A stretch of 44,166 nt of DNA from a virus (IMGVR_UViG_3300037486_000228:1-44166), one strand, 5' to 3'. Shown: positions 1-37,753, numbered from the stretch's first letter. Notes: generated by a model not told the origin, from the sequence alone. Numbers and translations: made by a program.

Positions 1-1031
1 TTCCACCTGCGATTATAAATTCAACGAGATTAACTGGCAAATCAATAACGTCGCCAGAAAGCGCGGAATTATTTGTAACTCCAAAATATAGTAACCCGGC
101 TGGCAGGTCTGCAATATCGCCATTGACTACACCCGTAGTGAATATATAAAACCTTTGTAACGTTGCTGGTAAGTCTGCAATGTCTCCTCCAAACGTTACG
201 GCAGCACCGGAACAATAAAAATATGTCAATGCAACTGGCAGATCGGCAAAATCACCAGTAACAATTCCAGTAGTAGCCAAACTGAAAAACGTAACCCCAA
301 CCGGAATGTCTGCCAAATCTCCCTGTATTGAACTGCCACTGTCCACAAGGAAATAAGTTAAAGCTGCACTAATATCAGCTATGTTACCTGTAAGGCTATT
401 GTTAACTACAAGAAAATAAGTTAATCCGGGCGGTAAGTCTGACACCGCCCCAGTTATCCCAACACCACTGAATACAAAGTATGTTATTCCGGCAGGTAAT
501 TCACTTGCAACCAGATTAAATGTATTTCCTGACGTAAATTCAAAATAAGTCAGGTTTGTGAATAACAAAGGATTCCCTCCGATTGTGGGACTATTCGATC
601 CTCCGGGAGTCCAGCCACCACCAGAACCGCCAAGCCGTGTAACTTTTGACGAATCGCTGAAATTGATAATACCAGTTCCGACGGGACATCTCATATAAAG
701 AGTACGCAAACCACCACTCGTAACTAATAGTGAAGTAGATTCATTGAGAGTTCCTGCCGCATCAGAATAAAAACGCCCTGCCCCGCTGATTGTCAAAGTT
801 ATATTACTTGACACAATCATATTCATTGAGGTTACACCACTGCCGTCCCCCTGTTTTGTTATGCCAAGACTGAATGCTGACGATTGTGAAATTGTGTTAG
901 AATTAACTGTTTGCCATGAAATTGATTCTGCACGAACACGGTAATAGTATTGCGTGTTTTCTAACAAGCCAGTTACGGGATATGAAGTAACATTTCCGAC
1001 GGACAGATTGTTGTAACCGGGAACGAATGAA
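1..1031. repeat. Imperfect terminal direct repeat, left copy
   Basis: Bases 1-1031 align without gaps to 43136-44166, with about 59 mismatches by eye. The repeat lies wholly inside the fibre gene. It most likely reflects overlap of the two ends of a circular or circularly permuted genome carrying allelic differences. Two separate paralogous genes are the alternative. Confidence 0.95.
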
Positions 1032-2083
1032 ATAAAGCCAGCATCGTAAGCAATGTCAAGAAGATAATTTGTTGCTCCTGCATAAGCTTGCCAGTTTGAC
1101 GTAAATGACAATACTGATACGTTCGTTGCAGCCAAAGCAACCGGCGGAGTTAAATTAAGTGATTTACCTTTTATTAAACGCAATCCTAAAAATTGATTTT
1201 TGTTAGCTACACCGGAAAATGAAGCATTGTCTGAATTAAATTCCATCTGTGCATAATAACACCTTGTCGCATCATATTCGTCTGCTGTTAATAATAAGGC
1301 TTGTTGACCAAGTAACAAATACAATCCTGTAATCGGATCGTAATAACCTGTCGACCGCATACTAAATCCATAAGTGTCGACAGCCCCTGTATTCGGTGCG
1401 TTCCAATGAACTGTACCAACTTCTTTTAAGATACCTCCAGCATCACTAACGTCACCAACAAAATTTATTAATTGCTGCCAATCGCTACGGGAAGGAACTC
1501 GCCAGCCATCAGGGACAAAACCAGATGACATAATTTGATTGTACGTGTATAAACCACCGTAGCCAGTTCTGTTAGGTTCATAGTTGTCATACACTTTTGA
1601 TCCGGGATAATTAGCATCCCAGTTTAAACACATCCAAATTTGTGTGCCTATTTCAACCTCGCAATAAATAACAGACGGTTCGATTACAGGTAATTGTATT
1701 GCTGGACTGAATCCGGTTGTGGATACTGCACGACTACCGACAATAATCGTAATTTCAACATCGTAACCATGTGTCAGGTTATTATAAACTTCCCACGATC
1801 CGGGATCAGCACGGACAGCACCCCAACCGGAATCCGTATAAATATAAATTTCCCGTGCGTTCATTATCGTCCGGATAGCCGTCGTCTGTTCTTCGGTAAG
1901 TTGACCAGATCCGATACGCATTTTCTGAGTTCCGAGCGTCCGGTATTTTTCACCTTCAGTCTGAAACAGGATTGAACCAGTACGAAATAGCCAGTAATGC
2001 CAACCATTATAATACCAACGCAGGTAATATCCGTCACATCGACGGCTGATTTTGATTCGTGCAAGATCGTAAAGACAGGCCAT
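1..2083 (-). CDS. Composite tail fibre: FISUMP + FN3 + leucine-rich repeats (3' part beyond window edge)
   Basis: Open for 694 codons from the ATG at 2083, which overlaps the stop of the upstream gene (ATGA). Residues 1-110 form a domain with the motif YYLRWYYNGWHYWLF (19-33), also found at the start of the 779-residue tail protein. Residues about 139-306 match the FISUMP (Fibrobacter succinogenes major paralogous) domain: IGTQIWM (145-151), PDGWRVPS (191-198), FLGLRLIKG at its end. Residues 310-395 are a fibronectin type III domain (ENTQYYYRVRA near its end). From about 470 follow repeats of 22-24 residues with the core GDIADLPxxLxYF, a leucine-rich-repeat type. If the genome is circular the gene ends at 42756, giving about 820 residues. 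Inferred role: exposed tail fibre or receptor-binding adhesin. Domain calls are firm, role inferred. Confidence 0.8.
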   Translation of the reverse strand, partial: MACLYDLARIKISRRCDGYYLRWYYNGWHYWLFRTGSILFQTEGEKYRTLGTQKMRIGSGQLTEEQTTAIRTIMNAREIYIYTDSGWGAVRADPGSWEVYNNLTHGYDVEITIIVGSRAVSTTGFSPAIQLPVIEPSVIYCEVEIGTQIWMCLNWDANYPGSKVYDNYEPNRTGYGGLYTYNQIMSSGFVPDGWRVPSRSDWQQLINFVGDVSDAGGILKEVGTVHWNAPNTGAVDTYGFSMRSTGYYDPITGLYLLLGQQALLLTADEYDATRCYYAQMEFNSDNASFSGVANKNQFLGLRLIKGKSLNLTPPVALAATNVSVLSFTSNWQAYAGATNYLLDIAYDAGFISFVPGYNNLSVGNVTSYPVTGLLENTQYYYRVRAESISWQTVNSNTISQSSAFSLGITKQGDGSGVTSMNMIVSSNITLTISGAGRFYSDAAGTLNESTSLLVTSGGLRTLYMRCPVGTGIINFSDSSKVTRLGGSGGGWTPGGSNSPTIGGNPLLFTNLTYFEFTSGNTFNLVASELPAGITYFVFSGVGITGAVSDLPPGLTYFLVVNNSLTGNIADISAALTYFLVDSGSSIQGDLADIPVGVTFFSLATTGIVTGDFADLPVALTYFYCSGAAVTFGGDIADLPATLQRFYIFTTGVVNGDIADLPAGLLYFGVTNNSALSGDVIDLPVNLVEFIIAGG

Positions 2084-5163: not shown

Positions 5164-5806
5164 GTTTCTTATTTTTTGCTTTGTATTCCTGATTTAGCAG
5201 GTCAGCATATTGCCGATTGAAATCCTGTGTAGCCTTTTCGTGCATAAATCTGACAAGGCATTCATTATACGGTGTCAGCAGGACTTCGCCGACAGTTATT
5301 TTCATGGAGTCACGTAAGAAATTCAGGGCTGACATTTCAGCAAAGACATTCAGCTTTTCGACGCCTGCGGCTAATTCCACTTTTGATGGTTCACGATGAA
5401 GCAGTTTCTGTTCACGTGTGATCATTTCACCAATCAGATTTATTATGTGGATAACGACCGGGTACAAATCCTGAACGACGCAAGTTAGAACTATTTTTCC
5501 GAATAATAACGCACAATCCTGATCCCATTTTTTACCAGTTACGATCGGATAATAGTAACCATCAATCACCCTGACAATTACGCCATAATCATTCGGTTCA
5601 TCACGGGCAAAGAACATTCGCTGACCGTAACAGATATTCCCTGTAAATTCATCCATCGTCTGTGGAACAGCATATTTTCGTTTCCCGATACGGATCTGAT
5701 CCGGGACACCGAACTGTGACAGCCCTTCAGCCAGACCGCCGTATTCATCATTCCGAGCCATCATTTGACCGAGCGTCAGTTTATGAATTGGGATCACGTG
5801 TGCCAT
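5144..5806 (-). CDS. Hypothetical phage protein next to TerL, 220 aa
   Basis: Unrecognised. It is a mixed alpha/beta soluble protein with a basic, lysine-rich tail (EYKAKNKKHG). It overlaps the end of TerL by 13 bases and the start of the 289-residue gene by 20 bases. In many phages this place holds a portal-proximal or tail-assembly protein, but no diagnostic motif is visible. The residues TMDEFTGNICYGQR (51-64) recall Bacteroidetes phage hypothetical proteins found in tail modules; low certainty. Confidence 0.5.
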   Translation of the reverse strand: MAHVIPIHKLTLGQMMARNDEYGGLAEGLSQFGVPDQIRIGKRKYAVPQTMDEFTGNICYGQRMFFARDEPNDYGVIVRVIDGYYYPIVTGKKWDQDCALLFGKIVLTCVVQDLYPVVIHIINLIGEMITREQKLLHREPSKVELAAGVEKLNVFAEMSALNFLRDSMKITVGEVLLTPYNECLVRFMHEKATQDFNRQYADLLNQEYKAKNKKHGRSET

Positions 5807-6939
5807 TTTGCCCTTCCACGATTAGCGTTAGTAACTGTTTCCATGAATCTGTATCGTCCGCAGTCAATCAGGTGATCGAACCCGTCAATCGGTATTCCTG
5901 CCCGTTTATCTGACCACAGATAGTTTTTAAATTCCTTTGCCAGATCCGTCGAATCCTCAGTAATCACGTGTTCGTAATCCTGCATGAGTCTGAGGGCTTC
6001 AGATACCGTCCATTTCGTTTTATTAACAGGTCGGATATTGAATCCCTTCTGTTTCAGTTCTGCAATCATTCGGGCATCGGCACAGTCAGCAGTTATCAAA
6101 TCATTACGCCGGGCCGACTGTCCGATCAGTATCCCGAGTTGTCCGGGTGTATTCCCTGACTGATATAATCTCTGATCCCAATACATTATTTTACGGCGCT
6201 GATCAATCGCAACTTTGACCATTGCGTCAGGATCATTAAATCCGAAATCCAATCCGAAACTAAATGGCAGATGATCATCGAATTCTCCGTAATGCCAGTT
6301 CTGGAATATCGCACCCTCGAGTTTGCCCGTAAGACCTTCGCCATAAACTTTCCACCAGTACGGACTGTTACGGTGTCGCAGAATTGATTCAACGATACGT
6401 GCTGAAAGGAACGGGTTGTCCCGGTACGTCGAATGGATATACCCGCATTCGTCCGGGTTCTTTGCCATCAGTTCATCGTGTACCCAGAATTCGGCAACAG
6501 GATTGAAGTCAATCAGGACAAACCAGTTTGTTCGGATTTCAAGCTGATCGAAAATATCATATTTTATTCCGTATGCTTCATTAACAAACAGGATATCCCG
6601 TCGGGCGCCTTTCATCCGTTCTGCCTTATCCCCGGAAAAGAATTCAATCAGGTTTGATCCGATCCGATAACTGCTGTCGGATCTGTTATGATCTGATTCG
6701 TTATATATCCCGTCATTCATCAGGATATGAAAGAAGTCACGCATCGCCCCACGTTTAAGGTGCGGATATGTTTCTGCGACAATACTGATTATCAGGTTCG
6801 ATTTAATATGACAGAGGCTAATAATGTTTTGCAGGACTGAATACGTTTTCGATGATGATGTACCGCCCTGATTTATTACGAAACGTTTTCCTGCTGCTAC
6901 TGCCTCAAGATTCTTTCGGTAAATCGGCGTTACTTTCAT
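5794..6939 (-). CDS. terL: Terminase large subunit (TerL)
   Basis: The DNA-packaging motor: an ATPase that drives DNA into proheads and a nuclease that cuts concatemers. Walker A is GGTSSSKT (25-32) and Walker B with the catalytic Glu is ILFVNEA (116-122). The RNase-H-like nuclease half has GLDFGFNDP (229-237, Asp231), ADCAD (284-288) and DHLIDCGRYRF (355-365), supplying the acidic metal-binding residues. The 381-residue length is on the short side but both domains are present. The layout is PBSX/Terminase_3-like. Its start overlaps TerS by 35 bases. Unusually, no portal gene follows; the portal lies about 22 kb away. Confidence 0.95.
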   Translation of the reverse strand: MKVTPIYRKNLEAVAAGKRFVINQGGTSSSKTYSVLQNIISLCHIKSNLIISIVAETYPHLKRGAMRDFFHILMNDGIYNESDHNRSDSSYRIGSNLIEFFSGDKAERMKGARRDILFVNEAYGIKYDIFDQLEIRTNWFVLIDFNPVAEFWVHDELMAKNPDECGYIHSTYRDNPFLSARIVESILRHRNSPYWWKVYGEGLTGKLEGAIFQNWHYGEFDDHLPFSFGLDFGFNDPDAMVKVAIDQRRKIMYWDQRLYQSGNTPGQLGILIGQSARRNDLITADCADARMIAELKQKGFNIRPVNKTKWTVSEALRLMQDYEHVITEDSTDLAKEFKNYLWSDKRAGIPIDGFDHLIDCGRYRFMETVTNANRGRAKWHT

Positions 6940-7342
6940 TCAACATTTCTAACGATTTATTTATTTTTTCCTGTTCGTCCTGATCCATCGGCTGGACTTT
7001 TAGTTCCGGAAGCCGGATCGTCTGTTCGACCTGATCCTTTTGTCCGAGCAGTTGTTTCCCGAGCCAGATCAGCATCGTTTTATCCCCTGACATTGCAGTA
7101 TCGAACTGCTTCGCCCGGATCAGTTCCAGCCCTTCAGCTTTTTTTAATGCCGACCAAGCCGAAAATTCCATATTATTGTCTTGTGGACAACGAACATAAA
7201 GTGTATCTGCCGATATGCCTAAAATACCTGCAATTTCTTTCGTCTGACATTGTGCCTGAAGGTAGCGTCCGACTTTCGTCCAGTCAATCAAAGCTTTTGG
7301 CCGACCTGCTGAGTCACGTTTTTTTACCTGAGTTTTCATCAT
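6905..7342 (-). CDS. terS: Terminase small subunit (TerS), putative
   Basis: A 145-residue protein directly before TerL. Residues 25-55 read like a helix-turn-helix that recognises the packaging site (QTKEIAGILGISADTLYVR), and a helical oligomerisation region follows. The basic N-terminus (KTQVKKRDSAGRPK) could contact DNA. Met1 or Met2 could be the start; both overlap the end of the glycosyltransferase gene (7314). Call based on HTH, size and position. Confidence 0.8.
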   Translation of the reverse strand: MMKTQVKKRDSAGRPKALIDWTKVGRYLQAQCQTKEIAGILGISADTLYVRCPQDNNMEFSAWSALKKAEGLELIRAKQFDTAMSGDKTMLIWLGKQLLGQKDQVEQTIRLPELKVQPMDQDEQEKINKSLEMLNESNADLPKES

Positions 7343-8207
7343 AAAATTGTTGTAATTCTGTTGACCTGATTTCCTGACGTTTCATTAACTGAATCCCGTA
7401 ATCGTCCCGTTCTGGAATCTTTGACCAATCAATATCAGTTCGCCGGATCAGTTTATTATGGAAACACCGCCAGTTATCTTTGACCTGAAAATGCCAACGA
7501 TTGAATTTCCAGACGACCGTTACGTACTGTGGCCAAGTCAGGGCAAGAATTTTGGCATTCCTGAGCCGGGCAAGTTTCGATCCTTTGTATTCTGTCGTAC
7601 AACCGCCTTTGACGGTCATCGTATTACATTTTTTTACAAGGAACGAATTGAAATTAACAGTACACATTCCACCCGTTACTACCTGTAAGCAGATATCGAC
7701 ATCATCATTCATTCTGAGGCGCCAACGATACGGCATTGTATTACTGAACAGACAGGCGGAATACGTATGGCAATTCAGGTAATAAGGCTTATCGATATCA
7801 TTCAGGGCGAACATATCGTAATTCAGTCCAGCGATCCCGATATTCGTATAACGGTCACAGAAGTCCTCGATTGCACTCAGGGCGACGTTAGCATTACAGC
7901 GGATCCGTTTGCCTTTGTTCATCCGGTACACCCACCGGATATTATCGTCGAACTGCCAGTTACGTGAGAACCCCTCTTTCGTGCTGTGGTCACGAATCCA
8001 ATTCCGGGCGTAAATTAATCCCTGATTATTCTGTGGAAGTTTCAGCAGACGTTCTGCTCCGAATTTTTCCCGGTACGTTTCATATTCCTGTGGCTCAACA
8101 ACGATTCTGAATTCCAAACCATCTTCCAGAAAAAATCGAGCCGTATAACTTACATCAGCCCGGCCTTTCGACGGAATATAAACAGGATATCTCGGCTTAT
8201 GTTCCAT
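7314..8207 (-). CDS. TET-associated-type glycosyltransferase (TAGT-like)
   Basis: The N-terminus PVYIPSKGRADVS (8-20), VVEPQEYETY (36-45), then FDDNI (86-90) and NDDVD (167-171) match the signature of the TET-associated glycosyltransferases (GT-A fold; the DD motifs bind metal and sugar nucleotide). Members of this family were predicted to glycosylate oxidised bases in phage DNA. No TET/JBP oxygenase or hydroxymethylase is visible here, so the acceptor is unknown; protein or glycan acceptors remain possible. It overlaps the rSAM/SPASM gene by 11 bases and TerS by 29, placing it in one operon with radical SAM, ParB and terminase genes. Confidence 0.7.
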   Translation of the reverse strand: MEHKPRYPVYIPSKGRADVSYTARFFLEDGLEFRIVVEPQEYETYREKFGAERLLKLPQNNQGLIYARNWIRDHSTKEGFSRNWQFDDNIRWVYRMNKGKRIRCNANVALSAIEDFCDRYTNIGIAGLNYDMFALNDIDKPYYLNCHTYSACLFSNTMPYRWRLRMNDDVDICLQVVTGGMCTVNFNSFLVKKCNTMTVKGGCTTEYKGSKLARLRNAKILALTWPQYVTVVWKFNRWHFQVKDNWRCFHNKLIRRTDIDWSKIPERDDYGIQLMKRQEIRSTELQQFYDENSGKKT

Positions 8208-9174
8208 CGTGGCAGTATTGACAAACAGGATTCATCCGGTAATTACCCTCACGATGCAGAAGGCGAAGATTAGTTATTACGGGACTGCTCCAAGCCTGAC
8301 GTAACGAAACTTTTTTTATGTTCCCGATTTTTAATTTCAGTCCGTGCATCGTGCAACATGGCAGGATATCACCGGCGGAATTTACAACTAACTGTTTAAA
8401 CGGGAACGAACATCTGAAAGTCCGACCATTCTGCGGAATAAATATATTCGATACCTTATCGATCGTTTCATACATTTCCTGAACAATGACCATATCGGCT
8501 TTTCCTGTCCAGTAATCCACAAATTCAGATTCTTCAGATTCATTCAGTTTATTTTTTAGGAAGTTAACACGAACCAATGGGTATTCCAGTTTCATTTCAT
8601 CACGGACGTTAATAAAATTCAGCGTATTATGAACGACCAGATTATATTTCGGTGATCCACGCTGAAGCATATATGTCCGGGCATTTATGGCGTCGATACT
8701 GATAAACAGTTTCGTTAGCCCGGCATCGATCAGCGAACGTGCCCTGTCGTCGGTCAGCAGGACACCGTTCGTACTCAGGAATACATTTATCATTCCACGA
8801 TTACGGGCTAACCTGATATAATTTTCCAGATCAGGCATCAACAGCGGTTCGTTCATATAGTTCAGTTTCAGCGACCGGATACCAAAATCATAAGCCTGAG
8901 TTATTATTTCATGGAACAGATCGAATCCGAGTTCCTGCTTTTTTATATTACGGACGCCGTGAATACAGAACTTGCACGACATATTACAATGTGAATTCAA
9001 TTCAACGTCCAGTTGTGCCGGGTGTTCATTGACCACGAGATTCTGAGCATCGTTATAATAATGTCGAAACGAATCCCATTCAGCAGGATCGACACCCGGA
9101 GGACATTGCTCCATAAGGTGGCGGTTCAGGATTTTATTACATTCATTCTTCCGTTGCACTAACATTTTCTTCAA
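8197..9174 (-). CDS. Radical SAM protein with SPASM-like C-terminal domain
   Basis: The CX3CX2C motif CNMSCKFC (Cys63, 67, 70) binds the 4Fe-4S cluster that cleaves S-adenosylmethionine. A C-terminal cysteine set (Cys255, 273, 274, 318, 321, in RCSFPF, LPCCTMHG and CQYC) fits a SPASM/Twitch auxiliary-cluster region preceded by the typical VVNSAGDILPCC. SPASM enzymes modify peptides, sugars or alcohols. Here the partners are a glycosyltransferase downstream and a ParB-like gene upstream (32-base overlap). The substrate cannot be told from the sequence. Confidence 0.85.
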   Translation of the reverse strand: MKKMLVQRKNECNKILNRHLMEQCPPGVDPAEWDSFRHYYNDAQNLVVNEHPAQLDVELNSHCNMSCKFCIHGVRNIKKQELGFDLFHEIITQAYDFGIRSLKLNYMNEPLLMPDLENYIRLARNRGMINVFLSTNGVLLTDDRARSLIDAGLTKLFISIDAINARTYMLQRGSPKYNLVVHNTLNFINVRDEMKLEYPLVRVNFLKNKLNESEESEFVDYWTGKADMVIVQEMYETIDKVSNIFIPQNGRTFRCSFPFKQLVVNSAGDILPCCTMHGLKLKIGNIKKVSLRQAWSSPVITNLRLLHREGNYRMNPVCQYCHDGT

Positions 9175-9808
9175 ATCTTAATGATTTCATATCCATCCGT
9201 TCCCTGTCGGGCCACCATGCAGACCAGACCGAATTTTGTTTCTCGAATTTTTTACTGAACTTCAGTTTCGTCAGTTCGATAAATTTTTCACGGTCATCTT
9301 CGGTTCTGAAATTAATGTTTATCATAAACGGTTTATCTCCCGGGACGAATTCAGGCATCCCCGTATAATCCTGTTCGTTCATCTTTTCGATCTGATCATT
9401 ATCAAAAAATGGGATTTCCAAGCCCCAAGCGATCAGGTCTTTTTCATCCCATTCATTTGCGAGTGCATCCCAATCAGCCTCACCAAACGGAATATTATCC
9501 TTGATGATATATCGTTTCAGTTTTTCGACCGACGTATCAGCAGGTAATATTTTACACAGCGTATCCTTAAATTTCAATTCCCGGCAAACTGCAAGTCGCT
9601 GATTCCCGGCAACGACAACGAATTTCGAGTTCAACGGAAAAACTAATAGTTCACGCAGTTCGAGCATTTCAGGATCTTCGATGATCGATTGTTTTAATTT
9701 CTGGTAACGGTGATCTTTGATGTAACGTGGATTCTTTGGAACGCCGTCGATCTGACCTGTGTTATTTTCCAGTTTCGATAACGGGAGGGTTTTTAGTATT
9801 ACTTCCAT
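9143..9808 (-). CDS. ParB/Srx-fold domain protein
   Basis: Residues 1-105 have the ParB/sulfiredoxin fold pattern: NPR (26-28), then VVVAGNQRLAVCREL (64-78) containing the GNQR nucleotide-binding motif. The C-terminal half (about 125-221) is acidic and holds DREKFIELTKLKF. Phage ParB-like proteins of this size may act as nucleases, ATP/CTP-binding switches or base-modification partners; this is not a plasmid-partition pair since no ParA exists here. It overlaps the SplB-like gene by 47 bases and the SPASM gene by 32. Confidence 0.8.
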   Translation of the reverse strand: MEVILKTLPLSKLENNTGQIDGVPKNPRYIKDHRYQKLKQSIIEDPEMLELRELLVFPLNSKFVVVAGNQRLAVCRELKFKDTLCKILPADTSVEKLKRYIIKDNIPFGEADWDALANEWDEKDLIAWGLEIPFFDNDQIEKMNEQDYTGMPEFVPGDKPFMININFRTEDDREKFIELTKLKFSKKFEKQNSVWSAWWPDRERMDMKSLRFEENVSATEE

Positions 9809-10805
9809 CGGTTATAAATTTATGATTGAATTGAGTATACTTAACATGGAATCCGGGAACCTTCCCGGAGATATTACAACAGTCATCCGGGTTCGCCCAA
9901 AGATATCTGAATTTATTATATGAACGATCATCGTCATAACAGATCGAAAATTCTATTCCTGATTTATCGCACAGGGATTTCAGGTGTTCGTAATAGTATT
10001 GCTTTTCGCTGAACTGAAAATGTAATGCCCCGTTTTTCATTTTGGCACCGTCGAACAGTTGACGGAAATTTATACCTGTCGCCTTGCGGATCCATCGCAG
10101 ATTCCAAGCCGACAGCCGGGCGAATCCTGCAATGACTGATCGTGTTCCGGATTCCCGGATCATATCGACGATCGACCAATCGAAATATCTGAATCGTCCT
10201 GCAAGGTTACGGTCGATTTCATATACCGGGAAAAACGGATTGATCCTGACTGCCGTATAAATCCCTGCATCGTTCAGACGGCGTAACGCCTCGAATCGCC
10301 CTGATGATACTGTGGCACCCGGTTCATAAATCCGGCTGACATCATCGAACGGTGTCGTTATTGAAACTTGTACGATACAATTTTTAGGATTCAGAATCGG
10401 AATGTAATCGGCGACCAGTTTATTTTTTGTCAGTATCAGGTACGGGTAGTCGTATTCGTTCAGCATCTGAATTATATCGTATGTCCGTTTCTGAGATATT
10501 TCGATATCCGAAAAGCAATCTGTCATTCCACCTAACCGAACCGGCATCCGGGCTGAAATCAGTTCAGCAAATTCACCCCGATTTTTCGTCAGGGCATTCT
10601 CGAAAACTGACCTGATATAATCTGAATTACTAACAGCAGGATCTTTTTCGTCCCACAGTTTTCGGAAATCGAGTGCAGATTTTGCATAACAGTACAGGCA
10701 ATTATTCGAGCAACCGCAACCGTAAGTATCAAGGACGAAGGGATAAAAACATCGGTTTGTTTCACCGCCTGAGGGAATACGAATAGGACTTTTGAATTCT
10801 TTCAT
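9762..10805 (-). CDS. SplB-like radical SAM protein, first gene of the late operon
   Basis: A 347-residue enzyme with GGETNRCFYPF then DTYGCGCSNNCLYCYAKS; the CX3CX2C cysteines are 32, 36 and 39. This is the group of phage radical SAM proteins related to spore photoproduct lyase. An in-frame ATG exists at 10934, but I prefer 10805: the frame before it has no family-like sequence and a good promoter box lies at 10850-10857, inside the longer version. Its end overlaps the ParB gene by 47 bases. Predicted activity is radical chemistry on nucleic acid or another substrate; DNA repair or base modification are both possible. Confidence 0.8.
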   Translation of the reverse strand: MKEFKSPIRIPSGGETNRCFYPFVLDTYGCGCSNNCLYCYAKSALDFRKLWDEKDPAVSNSDYIRSVFENALTKNRGEFAELISARMPVRLGGMTDCFSDIEISQKRTYDIIQMLNEYDYPYLILTKNKLVADYIPILNPKNCIVQVSITTPFDDVSRIYEPGATVSSGRFEALRRLNDAGIYTAVRINPFFPVYEIDRNLAGRFRYFDWSIVDMIRESGTRSVIAGFARLSAWNLRWIRKATGINFRQLFDGAKMKNGALHFQFSEKQYYYEHLKSLCDKSGIEFSICYDDDRSYNKFRYLWANPDDCCNISGKVPGFHVKYTQFNHKFITDGSNTKNPPVIETGK

Positions 10806-10849
10806 ACCGGATTTTAAGCGGTTTGAGGCTGTCGGAACTGAAATTTTCT

Positions 10850-10880
10850 CAAATGTAAGAAATTCCCTGAAATGGACACA
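10850..10880 (-). promoter_or_regulatory. Bacteroidetes-type promoter for the leftward operon
   Basis: On the minus strand, TACATTTG (10857-10850) is an exact match to the Bacteroidetes -7 box TAnnTTTG. TGTG at 10880-10877, with a 19-base spacer, resembles the -33 box TTTG. Transcription would start about 10843, leaving a leader of about 38 bases before the ATG at 10805. This site decided the start chosen for the radical SAM gene. Confidence 0.6.
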
Positions 10881-11435
10881 TTTTTTTTCGACGGCTAAAA
10901 CTGTGGTGGCTCCAATCGGTCGAACGTTCGTCAACAGGGTGGTATTACTATATCATGGATACCCGTAAATCGCTCCTACAAAGCCTTTTATCGGTCTACA
11001 TTAAAATGAAAATACTTTGAAAATAAACGTATAAATGTTTCCTCATGTCAAATGAATATATTAATTTTACCATTGTTCAGATCAGTTCTGATCCCGTCCC
11101 TTGAAATTCTGATTTCCCTGATACCCGGATGCTCGAATCAAAATCGCCGGGTTAGTGTCAGCAGATTTATTTTCTGTCAGTCTGGCATCCTCCAAGTTCT
11201 GGTATCAGGTTAAAAAAATAATCCTGAAAATATATGCGTCGGCATCTGATAACGGTTGTTGGGAAATAACCGGATACATACTCTAACAGACGGGGCGAAT
11301 CCGAACATAAAGTCTAAGGAAGGTCAATCAGCCTATTTATTATTGATATAACGGTGTCATGAAAGTTAACAGGGATCGTAACCCCTGCACCGTTACAAAT
11401 TAATTAACTGAATTATTCACTTAAATTTTACGATT
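10881..11435. other. Long structured non-coding control region between divergent operons
   Basis: About 550 bases without a convincing gene on either strand. It holds several inverted repeats: 9-base arms 11117-11125 and 11201-11209 (CCTGATACC/GGTATCAGG) with a nested CCCGG/CCGGG pair (11124-11128, 11147-11151); CGGTT/AACCG around 11254-11272; CGGAT/ATCCG (11271-11275, 11299-11303); and the pair at 11349-11395. A weak promoter-like TACTTTG lies at 11013-11019 on the plus strand. It probably carries the early promoter, a long structured leader and possibly operators or a non-coding RNA. No known RNA family recognised. Confidence 0.5.
11349..11395 (+). promoter_or_regulatory. Two-stem hairpin in the early leader
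   Basis: Outer arms TAACGGTG (11349-11356) and CACCGTTA (11388-11395) pair perfectly over 8 bases. An inner stem CAGGG/CCCTG (11370-11374, 11383-11387) abuts the outer 3' arm, allowing coaxial stacking. It ends 40 bases before the first early gene. No U-tract follows, so it is more like a regulatory leader or an operator than a terminator. Confidence 0.5.
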
Positions 11436-32597: not shown

Positions 32598-33113
32598 TTA
32601 TAATTGTGGAGTAAGTATGCCGCTGCCGTGAACAATCAGCTGACAGCCCTTCGCAGTCAAAGCCCGGTTAAGGTTTACAAAATGCAGACGTATCTTTGCG
32701 CAAAGCATTTTATCCAAGTGCGGGTGATTTGTCAGGTCGACGCCGAACAAGTGTATCTCGGTAGCACCAAAGTCCCGCCAAGCAATCTGCGTCGCCACAA
32801 ACGGACTACAAAAGCTTTTGTAGTAACCCGGCTGGTCAAGATTTACGGCGTGGTCAGGGTAGCCGGCAATAAGGTTAATCTTACGGAAGTCGGGGCGTGT
32901 GTCCCAAGCAACGATCTGGCTAAAGAAATATTCAGGTTTGCTTTCGTTAATCACCTTCAGGCGTTCAGGATTGAAAACTTTTGGGTAGTCAAGACAAACC
33001 AGCGCATCGGTTTTGACGTACTTCCAAACGTCATTTACGCCTATTGTGTAATCATAAGTTGGCAGGTATTCATTAATTGAACCGCCTGTTCCCAGCACTG
33101 CTACCGTTCCCAT
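32598..33113 (-). CDS. DUF115 / sialyltransferase-like superfamily protein, 171 aa
   Basis: Begins VAVLGTGGSINEYLP (4-18), a glycine-rich nucleotide-binding start, then IGVNDVWKYV and DALVCLDYPKVF; later ATEIHLFGVDLTNHPHL (about 116-132). This arrangement is seen in DUF115/MAF-like and GT29-like families that handle sugar nucleotides. Short compared with most relatives. Last gene of the carbohydrate cassette, overlapping the glycosyltransferase before it by 13 bases. Exact reaction unknown. Confidence 0.55.
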   Translation of the reverse strand: MGTVAVLGTGGSINEYLPTYDYTIGVNDVWKYVKTDALVCLDYPKVFNPERLKVINESKPEYFFSQIVAWDTRPDFRKINLIAGYPDHAVNLDQPGYYKSFCSPFVATQIAWRDFGATEIHLFGVDLTNHPHLDKMLCAKIRLHFVNLNRALTAKGCQLIVHGSGILTPQL

Positions 33114-33823
33114 ACGCCTTCAATTTCAGTTTTACCCCTTGCCGCCCTGTCGCGCCGTGTGCCGGCAGTGTTGTGTATTACGTAAACCGGCTCAATCGCA
33201 TCCCATACCCAGCCCTTCCCCGAAGTATGACCAAGATCGGGCAGGCGCTTGATGATGCGGTCGGTCAGCCCGTGCTGATGTATGTCAAGTGCTGCTTTGA
33301 AGCAAGGCGCGCCATGATGAACGTACTTATGGAACTTGTAATATTCCGAGATTTGCAGCAAGTGAAAGAACGGGTGTAGCATATACATAAATTCCTGCGT
33401 TTTATGGTGTGGCTGCGCCCCGTATTCATACCCGTCAAAGCCAGTCTTTTCAAGGTAACCCACGCCGTAAGTATCAGCATCCATCATGGAGAGCATCAGT
33501 TCCACCGGGCTTTTTATCATTACAATATCACTGTCAAAGATCAGCGCAAAGCGTGTCTTACACATTGCAATAGCAGCATCCATTCCCCTGCCGTGACCGA
33601 TGTTCTTGCCGGCTTGCCCGATGGTAGTCAGGTCGCTGGCAAGTGTACGCACGTAATTATAGCACGGGTCGCCGGGCGTGCTGCCATCAATAATTATTAT
33701 TGGCATTGTGGGATGAAACTTACGAACACTATCGTAAGCGTTGCGCATTAAGTCCGCGGTGTTGTGGCATACCGTTATGCCCGTGATATCCTTCATAGAG
33801 TTTTGCATCATCTTGTATTTCAT
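33101..33823 (-). CDS. GT2-like glycosyltransferase, 240 aa
   Basis: GT-A fold beginning ITGITVCHNTADLMRNAYDS, with IIIIDGSTPGD, then FALIFDSDIVM giving the metal-binding DSD (97-99). C-terminal acceptor region HHGAPCFKAALDIHQHG. Starts 95 bases (68 if Met10 is used) inside the end of the preceding glycosyltransferase, an unusually long overlap. Sugar and acceptor unknown; part of the cassette at 32.6-37.8 kb. Confidence 0.75.
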   Translation of the reverse strand: MKYKMMQNSMKDITGITVCHNTADLMRNAYDSVRKFHPTMPIIIIDGSTPGDPCYNYVRTLASDLTTIGQAGKNIGHGRGMDAAIAMCKTRFALIFDSDIVMIKSPVELMLSMMDADTYGVGYLEKTGFDGYEYGAQPHHKTQEFMYMLHPFFHLLQISEYYKFHKYVHHGAPCFKAALDIHQHGLTDRIIKRLPDLGHTSGKGWVWDAIEPVYVIHNTAGTRRDRAARGKTEIEGVWER

Positions 33824-34517
33824 GAGTTAAGTAAAGCATTTGAGGGTCGGGGCGCATATTGAGCAGCTTGCCATGACCTGCGCCAATACCAGCACGCCCC
33901 GGCATACCTTTCATACCGATAGCCAAGTTGCCTTCATTGAACAAGCCAACTTCGCCCCGGTGAACATAAAGCAGGGAATGTAGCTTCTCAAAGAATTTAA
34001 AGTCAATAAATTGCTGTCTGTAATTGCTGGCAAAGAGTTCAATCATTTCAGGACGAAAAGCCAGCTGAAATAAGCTTACGTGTGAAGTGTTACGGTTTAC
34101 GAAGTAGTTACGATAAAAAACGTTGTAGTAAACCGTGTTCATCTCGCCCAGTACCTTATAGTCTGCAAAGCGTGCCATCATGCGTTCAAGGTAAACGGGG
34201 CGGTAATAGTCATCGTCCTCAATTATGAAAATTGCTTCAATGTCTGCACGCTGGTAATTAGCAAGTAAGGCGTTCATCCCGGCTTCAATATTACGTGCCT
34301 GCGTGTTCTGCCCGTGCTGCCAAATTGGCGAAGGATAAATTTTGATGATCGTCCAGCCGGGCTTGAAGTCAGCCTGTACCATTTCGGTAGACCGTGGCTG
34401 CGCATCATCAACAATACACCACACCACTTCGCCCGTAAAGGTCTGCCGGCGCATAAACATCTGACATAATTCGAACTGTGCCGGGCGTGCGCCGGTTGGT
34501 GTAATGAGTGCTATCAT
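33729..34517 (-). CDS. GT-A glycosyltransferase, 262 aa
   Basis: Begins MIALITPTGARPAQFELCQM; VVWCIVDDAQ (31-40) and FIIEDDDYY (97-105; acidic DDD 101-103) provide the nucleotide-sugar and metal sites. The C-terminus has GIGAGHGK and many His. Coupled to the radical SAM gene by a 4-base overlap. Likely transfers a sugar onto the product of its neighbours; target unknown. Confidence 0.7.
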   Translation of the reverse strand: MIALITPTGARPAQFELCQMFMRRQTFTGEVVWCIVDDAQPRSTEMVQADFKPGWTIIKIYPSPIWQHGQNTQARNIEAGMNALLANYQRADIEAIFIIEDDDYYRPVYLERMMARFADYKVLGEMNTVYYNVFYRNYFVNRNTSHVSLFQLAFRPEMIELFASNYRQQFIDFKFFEKLHSLLYVHRGEVGLFNEGNLAIGMKGMPGRAGIGAGHGKLLNMRPDPQMLYLTHEIQDDAKLYEGYHGHNGMPQHRGLNAQRLR

Positions 34518-35635
34518 CGTGCTGTCATAATTTGGTATTCCCAGTTGCGTAATGTTTCAAGACTTTGTTCGTAAGTGTAATAAGGCGCACCACTTTCAAG
34601 GTAAACTTTATCATCGAAGCCCTGTTCTTTTGCCTTTGCGTGTATTGCAGTACCGGGTAGAATCCATGCAAGGTTAGCGCCCATTTCGGTAATTGCGCTA
34701 TCCTTTATCTTTGCCCGTGTGATTGCTACGTCGGCAGCCGTGTCGCCCGGCAATCCGACTATAAATAGGGAAATTGTAGGTATGCCAGCCCGTGCAGCAT
34801 TCGCAATGCCGGCGAGCATACGTTCAACCGTTGTATTTTTATTGCAGCGGTCAAGCGCCGCCTGTGAAAGCGTTTCAACACCCAGCCAAAGCTTACGGCA
34901 GCCAGCCCGGTAAAGTTCAGCGCAAAGGTCAGCGTCGAGCGCTTCGGCACGTGAGGTACACTGCCAAAGATGCTTACCATCCAAAGCACGGCAAATTTCG
35001 TAAGTACGTGTCTTGTTCAGCGTGAAGTTATCATCCTCAAAAATCCAAGTCGTATAACCTTCTGCCTTCCGGCGTTCAATCTCAAGTATAACGTTATCAG
35101 CGCTGCGCATCTTGTAACGGTGCTGCCAGAAGTCTGACGAAGCACAAAAGTTACAGGCGAACGGACAGCCCCGGCTCGTGATGATTGATATACCGGCGCA
35201 GCCTCCGAAGTTTATGCCGGTGTAGTCAGGCATAGGGATTTCGTTTATGCCGTAAAAATACTTATGTTCCTGCTCTGCCCCCTGTACTATTGGTTCGTTA
35301 TTGCCCTGCACGATTGCAATAATGGCGTTCTCGCCTTCACCTATCACAACTTGGTCGTACCCGGCTGCCAGCATTTGTTCAGGCAAAGCCGACGGGTGAT
35401 GACCGCCGCAAATAAGCTTACATTTGAACTTATTTCGGAGAATATTTGCATTTCTAACAGAAAATGAGTGGAATGTTACGCCGACGATATCAAACTGTTC
35501 ATCCGTAGCCAAAGCCTGCTCCAAGTTGTAAGCCTTAACATCAACTCGCCAGTGCTTTAACGCAGCCTGAAGGTAACCGATTGCAGGCGGCGGCAGGTAA
35601 TCATCTGCCCACGGGTTAACTAACAGAACTTTCAT
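34514..35635 (-). CDS. B12-binding-type radical SAM enzyme, 373 aa
   Basis: Residues 1-110 form a cobalamin-binding-like Rossmann domain (MKVLLVNPWADDYLPPPAIG, CGGHHPSALPEQML, VVIGEGE), without the DxHxxG motif. The radical SAM core has SRGCPFACNFCASS with Cys157, 161 and 164, then WIFEDDNFTLNK and LWLGVETLSQAALD. Such enzymes methylate or rearrange unreactive carbons, including in sugars. Flanked by glycosyltransferases, so glycan chemistry is the natural guess. Confidence 0.85.
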   Translation of the reverse strand: MKVLLVNPWADDYLPPPAIGYLQAALKHWRVDVKAYNLEQALATDEQFDIVGVTFHSFSVRNANILRNKFKCKLICGGHHPSALPEQMLAAGYDQVVIGEGENAIIAIVQGNNEPIVQGAEQEHKYFYGINEIPMPDYTGINFGGCAGISIITSRGCPFACNFCASSDFWQHRYKMRSADNVILEIERRKAEGYTTWIFEDDNFTLNKTRTYEICRALDGKHLWQCTSRAEALDADLCAELYRAGCRKLWLGVETLSQAALDRCNKNTTVERMLAGIANAARAGIPTISLFIVGLPGDTAADVAITRAKIKDSAITEMGANLAWILPGTAIHAKAKEQGFDDKVYLESGAPYYTYEQSLETLRNWEYQIMTAR

Positions 35636-36990
35636 TCTTCATACTTATCACTCATTCGCAACCAGCCGACTTCAGGGTGCAGACTTTTAAACTCATCAAT
35701 GTAATTGTCAACCACCTGCCGCAACGGCTGGAAGCCCCGGTCAATCCCCGAAGCGATGCGCACCATCAGCCCCGTCCAGTTAGCAGGCGTCTTGAGAAAG
35801 TAAACGTTAAAGCCCTCGGAATTAATCATGTCGTAATGGTTCACACGTGCGCCCGGTTCAGGTTCGCAGTCATGGAACAAAATGAGGTCAAATTTTTGGC
35901 GCAGCGTGTTAATAGCAATCATGCGACAAGTTTCATAATTGTCAACAAAGAGCAGGTTAGGTCGTGCTTCAGGCACGGGTAAGGCGGCGTAGTAGTCAGC
36001 AAGTGAACCAGCCTGCCGGTCAAGGTTGTGATGAATGAACGGCTGGTTAGTGTGGAACTTTGCCGTCATGTGACTGATCCAGCTTGCGTCATTCTCCACG
36101 CCAACGTACGGCAGCCCGGCAAAGAGGGGCGTGGAATTTTCGCCTATGCCAAGTTCAAGAATGAATTGCGGCTTGAAAAGTTCAAGTACGCCTTTGATTA
36201 TCGGCTGATGGGAAGCCCACTGCCAAGCCTTTTCATTATTCATGGTTTGTGTTGTTAGTGTTGTGTCACGGACGATGCAATTAGTTTCGATATCCTGTAA
36301 GTCTTTTGGCGTGCGCAGCCCGAACCTATGTCGCCAAAGATCGTACTTTTTATTCCATTCGTCAAGGCTTTTGGTTACGTAATGATGAATGACGGCTTTA
36401 GTGCGGGTGCTGTCAGTCCATGCGTCAGGGTATGGCACAAAGTCCTCATTCACAAGCGGGCGTGACGAGATGCAAAAATGAGGATGATGAACTTGCAGGC
36501 AGAACTCCCGGCGAATAATGGTCTTTAGCTGAAAGCTGCCGCCGTTCAGCACCCAGCCGCAACGGTCAGGCATACGCCAAATGTAATTATCCCTTACAAG
36601 CCCGGCAGGCTGCCGCCGGTGACCGGACGTGCCAAAGATTCGCCAGTTAAGCCCCAGCCCGCCATAACCTGCATAGGGTGCAAGCAGTTCATTGACGTCC
36701 CGGTGCTGCTTCAGCACAATGAACTCATCAATATCAATGCGGGCAATCCAATCGGCTGCAAAGTTGCGCACCGTATCCGTATGGCAGTTGTCAGCGGCAG
36801 AACCTTCAAATTGCCTGCGTTCCACAATTACGCTGACACGTTTGCCCCAGCGATTATGCACCAACGGGGCGCTTTCATTATCGTAAATTACAATATGCTC
36901 AAAGCCGATTGCAAGGTGGTACGCAATCCATTCATCAAGATAAGCGCCTTCATCCTTTACCTGTGTGCTGATGATTGCCTTATACTTCAT
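35632..36990 (-). CDS. Glycosyltransferase (GT92/GT2_4-like) fused to a methyltransferase-like domain, 452 aa
   Basis: I take the ATG at 36990, because the 81 residues before it overlap the preceding gene and do not look like a domain. Residues 1-245: VKDEGAYLDEWIAYHLAIGF (11-30), HIVIYDNES, and the DIDEF motif (86-90), typical of GT92/Glyco_tranf_2_4. Residues 260-452: FILELGIGENS (276-286) and GVEND (297-301) form a Rossmann start as in class I SAM methyltransferases. One protein could both add and methylate a sugar. Confidence 0.75.
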   Translation of the reverse strand: MKYKAIISTQVKDEGAYLDEWIAYHLAIGFEHIVIYDNESAPLVHNRWGKRVSVIVERRQFEGSAADNCHTDTVRNFAADWIARIDIDEFIVLKQHRDVNELLAPYAGYGGLGLNWRIFGTSGHRRQPAGLVRDNYIWRMPDRCGWVLNGGSFQLKTIIRREFCLQVHHPHFCISSRPLVNEDFVPYPDAWTDSTRTKAVIHHYVTKSLDEWNKKYDLWRHRFGLRTPKDLQDIETNCIVRDTTLTTQTMNNEKAWQWASHQPIIKGVLELFKPQFILELGIGENSTPLFAGLPYVGVENDASWISHMTAKFHTNQPFIHHNLDRQAGSLADYYAALPVPEARPNLLFVDNYETCRMIAINTLRQKFDLILFHDCEPEPGARVNHYDMINSEGFNVYFLKTPANWTGLMVRIASGIDRGFQPLRQVVDNYIDEFKSLHPEVGWLRMSDKYEE

Positions 36991-37753
36991 TGAAGTCGGG
37001 TGTAAAGTGGTGTACTGCAACCGGGTCGCCCGCCCGGCGTATAGCTTCAAAACGACGCTTGTTCCGGTTGAAAAGTTCCTGCCAGTTTTTAGGAACATAA
37101 CTGCGGGCGTGGTATTGGTGTACGACGAAGGGATGATCTGTAATTTCAACCTGCAAGCCAAGCAAGCGTACACGTGCAAGCAGTTCATCATCCTCAAAGC
37201 AGTAACCATCTGCAAACCGTTCATCAAAGCCATTGAGGCGGCGTAGGTTTATGGCACGCGTTGCGGCGCACCAATGATAACCCATAGGGCGAATAAAGCG
37301 GTGGTTCAGCCAAGCATTATCTTCGTTATTAACGGCGTGAACATTATGCCGGTTCACGACACTGTAAATTTCATGCTCGCTGAACGTTTCCCGGCTTGCA
37401 AGGTTAAAACAGGCAAATGAGATATAAGCGCCCGGCTGCACACCTGCCGCCCGGCTGATGACGTCGCCTACGTGGTAAGTTTCAGCGTTCTGCAAAATGA
37501 TGACTTCTGCGCCGCTTTTGAGTGCTGCCGCTATGCCGGTATTGTATGCCGGGCTGCCGTCAATCCAGCGCTTATCCTGTGTTTTCAATTTAGTAACCGG
37601 GAAAGGCTGCCTGCCTACTTTGGGCGCTGCCGGGCTGCAATCATCAACTATGAATACCTGAAAATCTTTGTGCGCAGTGTTACTAAAGCTTGCAAGCGTG
37701 CGGTCAAGTTGTGGCTGCCGGTCAAAATACGTCATTACGATTGCAACTTTCAT
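36980..37753 (-). CDS. GT2 glycosyltransferase, 257 aa
   Basis: Family 2 fold: MKVAIVMTYFDRQPQLDRTL, FIVDDCS (34-40), IILQNAE (85-91) in the position of the metal-binding motif, then GFDERFADGYCFEDDELLAR (about 174-193), the C-terminal galactosyltransferase-like signature. Overlaps its neighbours by 4 and 11 bases. First glycosyltransferase of the cassette. Confidence 0.85.
   Translation of the reverse strand: MKVAIVMTYFDRQPQLDRTLASFSNTAHKDFQVFIVDDCSPAAPKVGRQPFPVTKLKTQDKRWIDGSPAYNTGIAAALKSGAEVIILQNAETYHVGDVISRAAGVQPGAYISFACFNLASRETFSEHEIYSVVNRHNVHAVNNEDNAWLNHRFIRPMGYHWCAATRAINLRRLNGFDERFADGYCFEDDELLARVRLLGLQVEITDHPFVVHQYHARSYVPKNWQELFNRNKRRFEAIRRAGDPVAVHHFTPDFNEV

Follow-up and report, generated by a model that had tools for sequence, protein, structure and literature searches.

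A terminase-linked ParB-glycosyltransferase cassette with a radical SAM enzyme as candidate system for phage DNA glycosylation

The stretch of DNA analysed in this study, referred to as the window, is a virus record of 44,166 bases with linear ends (IMGVR_UViG_3300037486_000228). Its minus strand carries a series of genes with overlapping frames, whose presence was confirmed, encoding a radical SAM enzyme (rSAM1), a ParB-like protein, a second radical SAM enzyme (rSAM2) and a TAGT glycosyltransferase, followed by the terminase subunits TerS and TerL (Table 1). On the level of protein families, rSAM2 is matched by PF04055 (2e-13) and PF13186 (3e-13) and rSAM1 by NF033668 (9e-20) and, under the cut-off of that family, by PF04055 (2e-5). 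The comparison with the related record L002 yields dN/dS values of 0.09 for ParB, 0.23 for rSAM2, 0.04 for TAGT, 0.16 for TerS and 0.13 for TerL, and that of rSAM1 with its counterpart in L065 a value of 0.04 at saturated dS; all six genes are therefore maintained by purifying selection. The original prediction of a four-gene operon running into the terminase genes is borne out with respect to the genes, their order and their overlaps but not with respect to a single conserved unit, since rSAM1 is missing in L002 and in other cassettes.

Table 1. Genes, domains and exchanged segments at the locus, in window coordinates.
Feature	Position	Strand	Description
rSAM1	9762-10805	-	347-aa radical SAM enzyme, Rv2578c/PA0069/photolyase-like group; ATG start
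ParB	9143-9808	-	phrog_17622 (2e-43)
ParB N-terminal domain	9410..9808	-	residues 1-133, ParB/Srx fold; constant part of the cassette
ParB C-terminal 'MPEF' domain	9152..9409	-	residues ~134-219
rSAM2	8197-9174	-	325-aa radical SAM enzyme, BtrN-type twitch/SPASM auxiliary Fe-S site
TAGT	7314-8207	-	glycosyltransferase, GT-A type, PF20691
TerS	6905-7342	-	small terminase subunit; by position, size and orthologues in L002 and L065
TerL	5794-6939	-	large terminase subunit; PF04466, PF17288, TIGR01547
Exchange segment 1	9835..10810	-	insertion with rSAM1
Exchange segment 2	7010..9398	-	ParB codon ~137 to TerS codon ~111

The relationship of the TAGT to enzymes acting on phage DNA is reflected in its match to PF20691, which covers the entire profile (positions 1-205 of 205) with an E-value of 1.2e-43 and a score of 149.9 bits (cut-off 27.5), and in residues that are invariant between the protein and the TAGT of phage T6 (YP_010067197), namely D87, D88, D169, E114, G201 and G202. 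The T6 enzyme uses glucosylated hmC of phage DNA as acceptor for a further glucose (PMC13216743), and members of PF20691 act on phage DNA in experiments (PMC13216743, PMC13390438). Although both proteins share the family and its DD/D/GG residues, the T6 TAGT is located beside a thymidylate-synthase-family gene in a phage that also has an alpha-GT, neither of which was found in the window, whereas in the window the TAGT stands beside the terminase in the company of a radical SAM enzyme and a ParB with its MPEF domain. In 288 of 753 genomes, phage TAGT homologues occur with neither an alpha- nor a beta-GT, and no function has been assigned to them (PMC13216743). A TAGT-type gene likewise resides in a modification cluster in TET/JBP-TAGT systems such as those of Nonlabens phage P12024L (L007) and of L022-L024, latter of which contain ParB and terminase like the window; these systems have a TET gene, which was not found in the window, where rSAM2 and a ParB with MPEF domain are present. 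In RB69-type arabinosylation (Mosigvirus), DNA glycosyltransferases also occur alongside enzymes of sugar-nucleotide metabolism, among them an epimerase, but the base handle is provided by a TS-family 5-hydroxy-dCMP synthase (PMC13390438), and no such gene was found in the window.

Searched alone against Pfam, ParB has no match, and no PDB sequence relatives were found for ParB, TAGT and rSAM1. The AlphaFold models are of moderate confidence, with low values in the MPEF domain and in parts of rSAM2; that of ParB, with a pLDDT of about 90 in the N-domain, matches PadC, CTP-binding ParB, sulfiredoxin and SbnI/SerK, and Foldseek relates the N-domain to PadC (6ryk, 1e-5) and to the ParB structures 7bnk and 6sdk. 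The fold of this domain is thus common to plasmid and chromosome ParB, which continue with a helix-turn-helix and have a ParA gene adjacent, whereas the window ParB shows no HTH_ParB match and carries the MPEF domain in its place; a ParA-type Pfam match was not found among the window proteins scanned. The MPEF domain, with the sequence pattern GMPEF...F..L...K..W.P, is present in 67 of 71 ParB open reading frames at TAGT loci and in none of 59 at other ParB loci, counts that describe linkage and not frequencies, as the two sets come from different searches. The four proteins lacking it are additional ParBs that are not upstream of a TAGT. The domain is found behind ParB, as a free open reading frame before the TAGT or fused to the TAGT (L003, L005, L153, L155, L156), and the MPEF-ParB-TAGT linkage is kept in phages with different terminases.

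Two relatives of the window illustrate how the locus is exchanged in nature. The 5.5-kb record L002 contains ParB-rSAM2-TAGT-TerS-TerL, with proteins that are 79-95% identical to those of the window, and lacks rSAM1 in a clean gap with both flanks kept at 82-88% nucleotide identity. In contrast, L065, with a TerL of 80% and a ParB N-domain of 75% identity, keeps this domain and an rSAM1 of 81% identity beside a different cassette, and its exchange segment 2 has been substituted as one block, with a ParB C-terminus and a TerS N-terminus of another type and, between them, a TAGT-family gene unlike that of the window (PF20691, 6.9e-14). The ParB C-terminal domain is therefore exchanged along with the enzymes of the cassette. 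The same records define rSAM1 as a separate, independent accessory gene outside the conserved core, as L002 lacks it and L065 retains it with a different cassette. Consequently, the proposal that both radical SAM enzymes form a single pathway did not hold, as L002 and all other rSAM-TAGT cassettes in which rSAM1 was sought are devoid of it. With respect to its own identity, rSAM1 does not match the spore photoproduct lyase family PF20903 (SPL) and has only the weak PF04055 match, and its likeness to the Rv2578c/PA0069 profiles lies below their cut-offs.

The position of ParB ahead of the terminase is itself linked to DNA modification. Scans with the single sequences of ParB and rSAM2 gave almost no matches, and profile scans were thus used, which for ParB identified 58 IMG/VR loci, of which 37 were left after dereplication. 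TerL is found within 4 kb downstream of ParB in 28 of these 37 loci, an approximate number that includes unconfirmed terminases (as in L035 and L039), with terminase identity checked by PF03237 and phrog_2 for part of the TerL calls. Among the enzymes fused to ParB relatives or encoded behind them are N6/N4 methylases, mostly in the form of fusions, a C5 methylase (L009), Mom (L013, 8e-50), TET with TAGT-like genes (L022-L024), TET alone (L062), DpdA/QueC/PTPS/QueF (L025, L027) and, at some loci, an ABC-ATPase gene, joined in L004/L060 by a GNAT domain. Matches to DNA-modification families were obtained for up to 21 of 67 ParB-slot proteins but for only 2 of 79 neighbouring genes at the same loci (Fisher p = 1e-6; p = 0.01 without methylase fusions). 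The arrangement extends to Bacteroides phage BS-TP3 (ParB-methyltransferase-TerS-TerL) and Streptococcus phage Javan291 (ParB-TAGT-small gene-TerL), latter of which lacks the radical SAM gene and yielded no TET. Because ParB relatives adjoin known DNA-modifying enzymes, these results support DNA as the substrate of enzymes in the terminase-linked ParB slot, and they agree with the earlier assignments of ParB-like proteins to DNA-modification clusters and, in conjunction with the residues shared with the T6 TAGT, of the cassette to DNA modification. ParB-fold partners of DNA modification are already known in DpdB and DndB (PMC12839542), and so are fusions of ParB with methylases and the pairing of ParBc with CmoX, for which the authors describe the function of ParB as unknown (PMC12783734). 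In all of these, a ParB/Srx fold is likewise encoded beside a DNA-modifying enzyme, whereas the window is distinguished by its cargo, a TAGT with a radical SAM enzyme, and by the TAGT-specific C-terminal domain; deazaguanine-type Pfam matches (DpdA, QueC/D/F) were not found among the window proteins scanned.

The core radical SAM enzyme, rSAM2, contains the cluster cysteines C63/C67/C70 in a CX3CX2C motif and the auxiliary cysteines C255, C273, C318 and C321. Its closest solved relative by both sequence and fold is BtrN (4m7t, E 4e-13), with which the four auxiliary-cluster cysteines align gap-free, and its top ten structural matches include BlsE and DesII, both likewise enzymes with sugar-like substrates. 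Twitch radical SAM enzymes have diverse substrates. BtrN, a 2-deoxy-scyllo-inosamine dehydrogenase, oxidises a ring hydroxyl of its sugar-like substrate by two electrons (PMC9012708). Despite the common twitch fold and auxiliary cysteines, rSAM2 is only about 21% identical to BtrN, has a different N-terminal extension and is found in a putative phage DNA-modification context instead of antibiotic biosynthesis; as to an identity with BtrN proper, no aminoglycoside gene cluster surrounds it and the NCBIfam equivalog cut-offs are not reached.

The company kept by the TAGT in related cassettes places rSAM2 in a broader context. From 469 relatives identified in IMG/VR by a TAGT profile scan, 80 loci were retained, and genomes contributed a further 8; since most loci stem from this one search and are not phylogenetically independent, counts do not equal independent phages, and the IMG/VR records are mostly fragments with mechanical gene calls in relatives. 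At most TAGT loci, a ParB of about 200 aa is found directly upstream. The TAGT is accompanied by an NAD-dependent epimerase/dehydratase at 29 loci, an RGP-type enzyme at 9 and other glycosyltransferases at 7, and at other loci by tandem TAGTs, up to four or five, or by a radical SAM enzyme. A common 277-aa gene following the TAGT, considered as a TET, proved to be an NAD epimerase/dehydratase. Orthologues of rSAM2 are present in L002, L072, L158, L159 and L161; they stand beside a TAGT in L002, L072/L071 and L159, and in the fragments L158 and L161 they immediately precede TerS/TerL and no TAGT was observed. Other radical SAM enzymes take its place beside MPEF/TAGT in L101, L082 and L154, latter of which is a ParB-rSAM-TAGT contig binned with a methanogen as putative host, and at least three divergent lineages (window/L002/L072/L159; L101/L082; L154) thus occupy this position, followed by TerL in the window, L002, L072, L101 and L154. 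In related phages the same position is filled by RGP-type enzymes or epimerases of sugar nucleotides, and the co-occurrence of epimerases with radical SAM enzymes (0/6 compared to 29/80, p = 0.09) is no more than suggestive of both being mutually exclusive.

The predicted lack of a TET or hydroxymethylase is supported by searches of the window. TET (PF12851) was not found in the window, L002, L065, L072, L101 and L154 by a search that detects four TET-bearing records, and in none of 32 TAGT records, many of them fragments. The TS-fold (PF00303) is absent from the 44-kb window, whose linear ends indicate a possibly incomplete genome, and present in 1 of 34 TAGT records, again with many fragments. 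A C5-methylase as source of the acceptor was found neither in the window nor in ten related records.

Together, these features lead us to propose, with a probability of about 0.55, that ParB, rSAM2 and TAGT constitute a phage DNA-glycosylation cassette in which rSAM2 tailors the sugar and rSAM1 is accessory. The broader reading that the genes attach an unusual sugar to the phage's own DNA is very probable. Gene content, conservation, domain linkage, block exchange and the match in fold and cluster ligands are established by the data, whereas we infer that the substrate is DNA, that rSAM2 targets the sugar and that the benefit is protection, as well as the following sequence of steps. The cassette, adjacent to the packaging genes, would be expressed late. 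Its ParB-fold protein would bind nucleotide and/or DNA via its constant N-domain and its MPEF domain would position the TAGT, which in turn would move a sugar from a nucleotide sugar onto phage DNA; as no nucleotide-level hydroxymethylase was seen in the phage, this transfer would most likely follow replication. With 5'-deoxyadenosyl-radical chemistry, which needs no oxygen, rSAM2 would change the sugar by oxidation or epimerisation while it is still part of the donor or once it has been transferred, and the finished base would resist host restriction or glycosylase defences. The role in sugar tailoring is favoured by the match to BtrN and by the epimerase and RGP genes in sister cassettes, and it appears at least as likely as the synthesis of a modified base by rSAM2, since the other TAGT companions in these cassettes are sugar-nucleotide enzymes. 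More tentatively, ParB might recruit both TAGT and rSAM2 around packaging, with rSAM2 acting independently of oxygen on phage DNA or a DNA-bound sugar, where it would either make the attachment point or edit the DNA-borne sugar.

In the DNA-glycosylating phages known so far, a TS-family or TET enzyme supplies the hydroxyl with which the process begins, and TET requires oxygen. It is conceivable, although in our view rather doubtful, that rSAM2 replaces TET and activates a base, such as the methyl group of thymine or 5-methylcytosine, to provide an oxygen-free handle for the TAGT. Such a role would account for the acceptor that the TAGT needs, in a window where the search for TET, TS-fold and C5-methylase genes found none and in a TAGT branch where, with many records being fragments, the acceptor is unexplained throughout; it would also parallel the TAGT-like genes that stand with TET in the ParB cassettes of L022-L024. 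The independence of radical SAM chemistry from oxygen would suit the putative methanogen host of L154 and that of the window, whose Fib_succ_major, DUF6712 and DUF5675 proteins presumably point to a Bacteroidota-type host. However, since most MPEF-TAGT cassettes contain neither a radical SAM enzyme nor TET, the former is not a general source of the acceptor, and both the sugar enzymes among the companion genes and the fold of rSAM2, which resembles an enzyme acting on a sugar-like ring and not a base-modifying one, argue for sugar tailoring instead.

The absence of an acceptor-making gene for DNA from our searches would also be compatible with a protein or glycan as target, on the capsid, the tail or the host surface, with the terminase nearby by chance. 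Polysaccharides, too, are built with GT-A glycosyltransferases, epimerases and RGP-type enzymes, and at 33-38 kb, where tail genes are located, the window contains a second glycosyltransferase/radical SAM cluster. We regard this as unlikely in light of the N6/N4, C5, Mom, TET and DpdA/Que enzymes linked to ParB relatives in the same position, the persistence of the MPEF-ParB-TAGT linkage with different terminases and the experimental action of PF20691 members on phage DNA (PMC13216743, PMC13390438). Similarly improbable as a general account is that rSAM2 or rSAM1 is a passenger in a hypervariable locus, a repair enzyme of the spore-photoproduct-lyase type or a maturase, and that ParB and TAGT alone confer the modification, as might be suggested by the many ParB-TAGT cassettes without radical SAM enzyme. 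For rSAM1, which matches the photolyase-like Rv2578c/PA0069 group and is clearly optional, this is the interpretation we prefer, but rSAM2 recurs beside the TAGT in divergent lineages, in overlapping frames and under purifying selection.

The original prediction named the locus as its strongest candidate for an undescribed system, a label that applies to the radical-SAM variant only, as publications already cover both TAGTs lacking an alpha- or beta-GT and ParB genes beside DNA-modifying enzymes (PMC12783734, PMC12839542, PMC13216743); searches of the open-licence literature yielded no description of ParB-MPEF-TAGT cassettes or of a radical SAM enzyme within them. If our proposal is correct, this variant would constitute an undescribed way of building a DNA disguise and could yield new DNA sugar chemistry. 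Many of the partnerless phage TAGTs may be explained by an association with exchangeable sugar enzymes and with a ParB that is linked to the terminase and carries a TAGT-specific domain, and an MPEF-ParB upstream of the terminase provides a simple marker for finding uncharacterised phage DNA modifications. Our work also raises the question why one ParB fold accompanies processes as distinct as methylation, momylation, deazaguanine insertion and glycosylation.

The segment of the window immediately 5' of rSAM1, the optional radical SAM gene preceding the TAGT glycosyltransferase cassette, is kept in two close relatives (positions 10806-11300; 88% over 317 nt in L002, and also in L065). It contains the start of the late operon and is likely a promoter or leader.

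Relatives of both radical SAM genes are found in other settings. In the human gut phage MT835521 (6315-7837), an open reading frame whose sequence by eye resembles that of a C5-methylase immediately precedes an rSAM1 relative with 39% identity across the N-terminal part, and the two are a possible pair working on 5-methylcytosine. Orthologues (54-55%) of rSAM2, the radical SAM/twitch gene, immediately precede small and large terminase-like genes in L158 and L161, two fragmentary records in which neither TAGT nor ParB was found.

The late genes of the window also hold a second sugar/radical-SAM cluster (33101-37753, minus strand), which possibly synthesizes a tail or surface glycan. A large protein with fibronectin-like stretches is probably a tail protein or adhesin, and its Fib_succ_major domain, together with DUF6712 and DUF5675 proteins encoded elsewhere in the window, suggests a Bacteroidota-type host.

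Further features of the window
Feature	Position	Strand	Cluster
Fib_succ_major, fn3-like protein	2-2083	-	
GT2	33101-33823	-	second sugar/radical-SAM
B12-binding radical SAM	34514-35635	-	second sugar/radical-SAM
GT2_4/GT92-like	35632-37233	-	second sugar/radical-SAM
GT2 with GT7C domain	36980-37753	-	second sugar/radical-SAM

In several related cassettes (L009 927-1571, L014, L028, L020), one gene family, whose L009 member carries HNH endonuclease domains, lies immediately upstream of ParB and may serve as its partner in homing or restriction. ABC-ATPase proteins also occupy the ParB slot upstream of the terminase, in L036 (520-2338) together with a formyltransferase, in L063 (2794-3513), and in L004/L060, where a GNAT domain is fused to them; they are candidates for further DNA-modification chemistries. 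In L076 (5247-9152), ParB-MPEF is followed by four tandem TAGT genes and an RGP-type companion gene, an arrangement that suggests oligosaccharide chains on the substrate.
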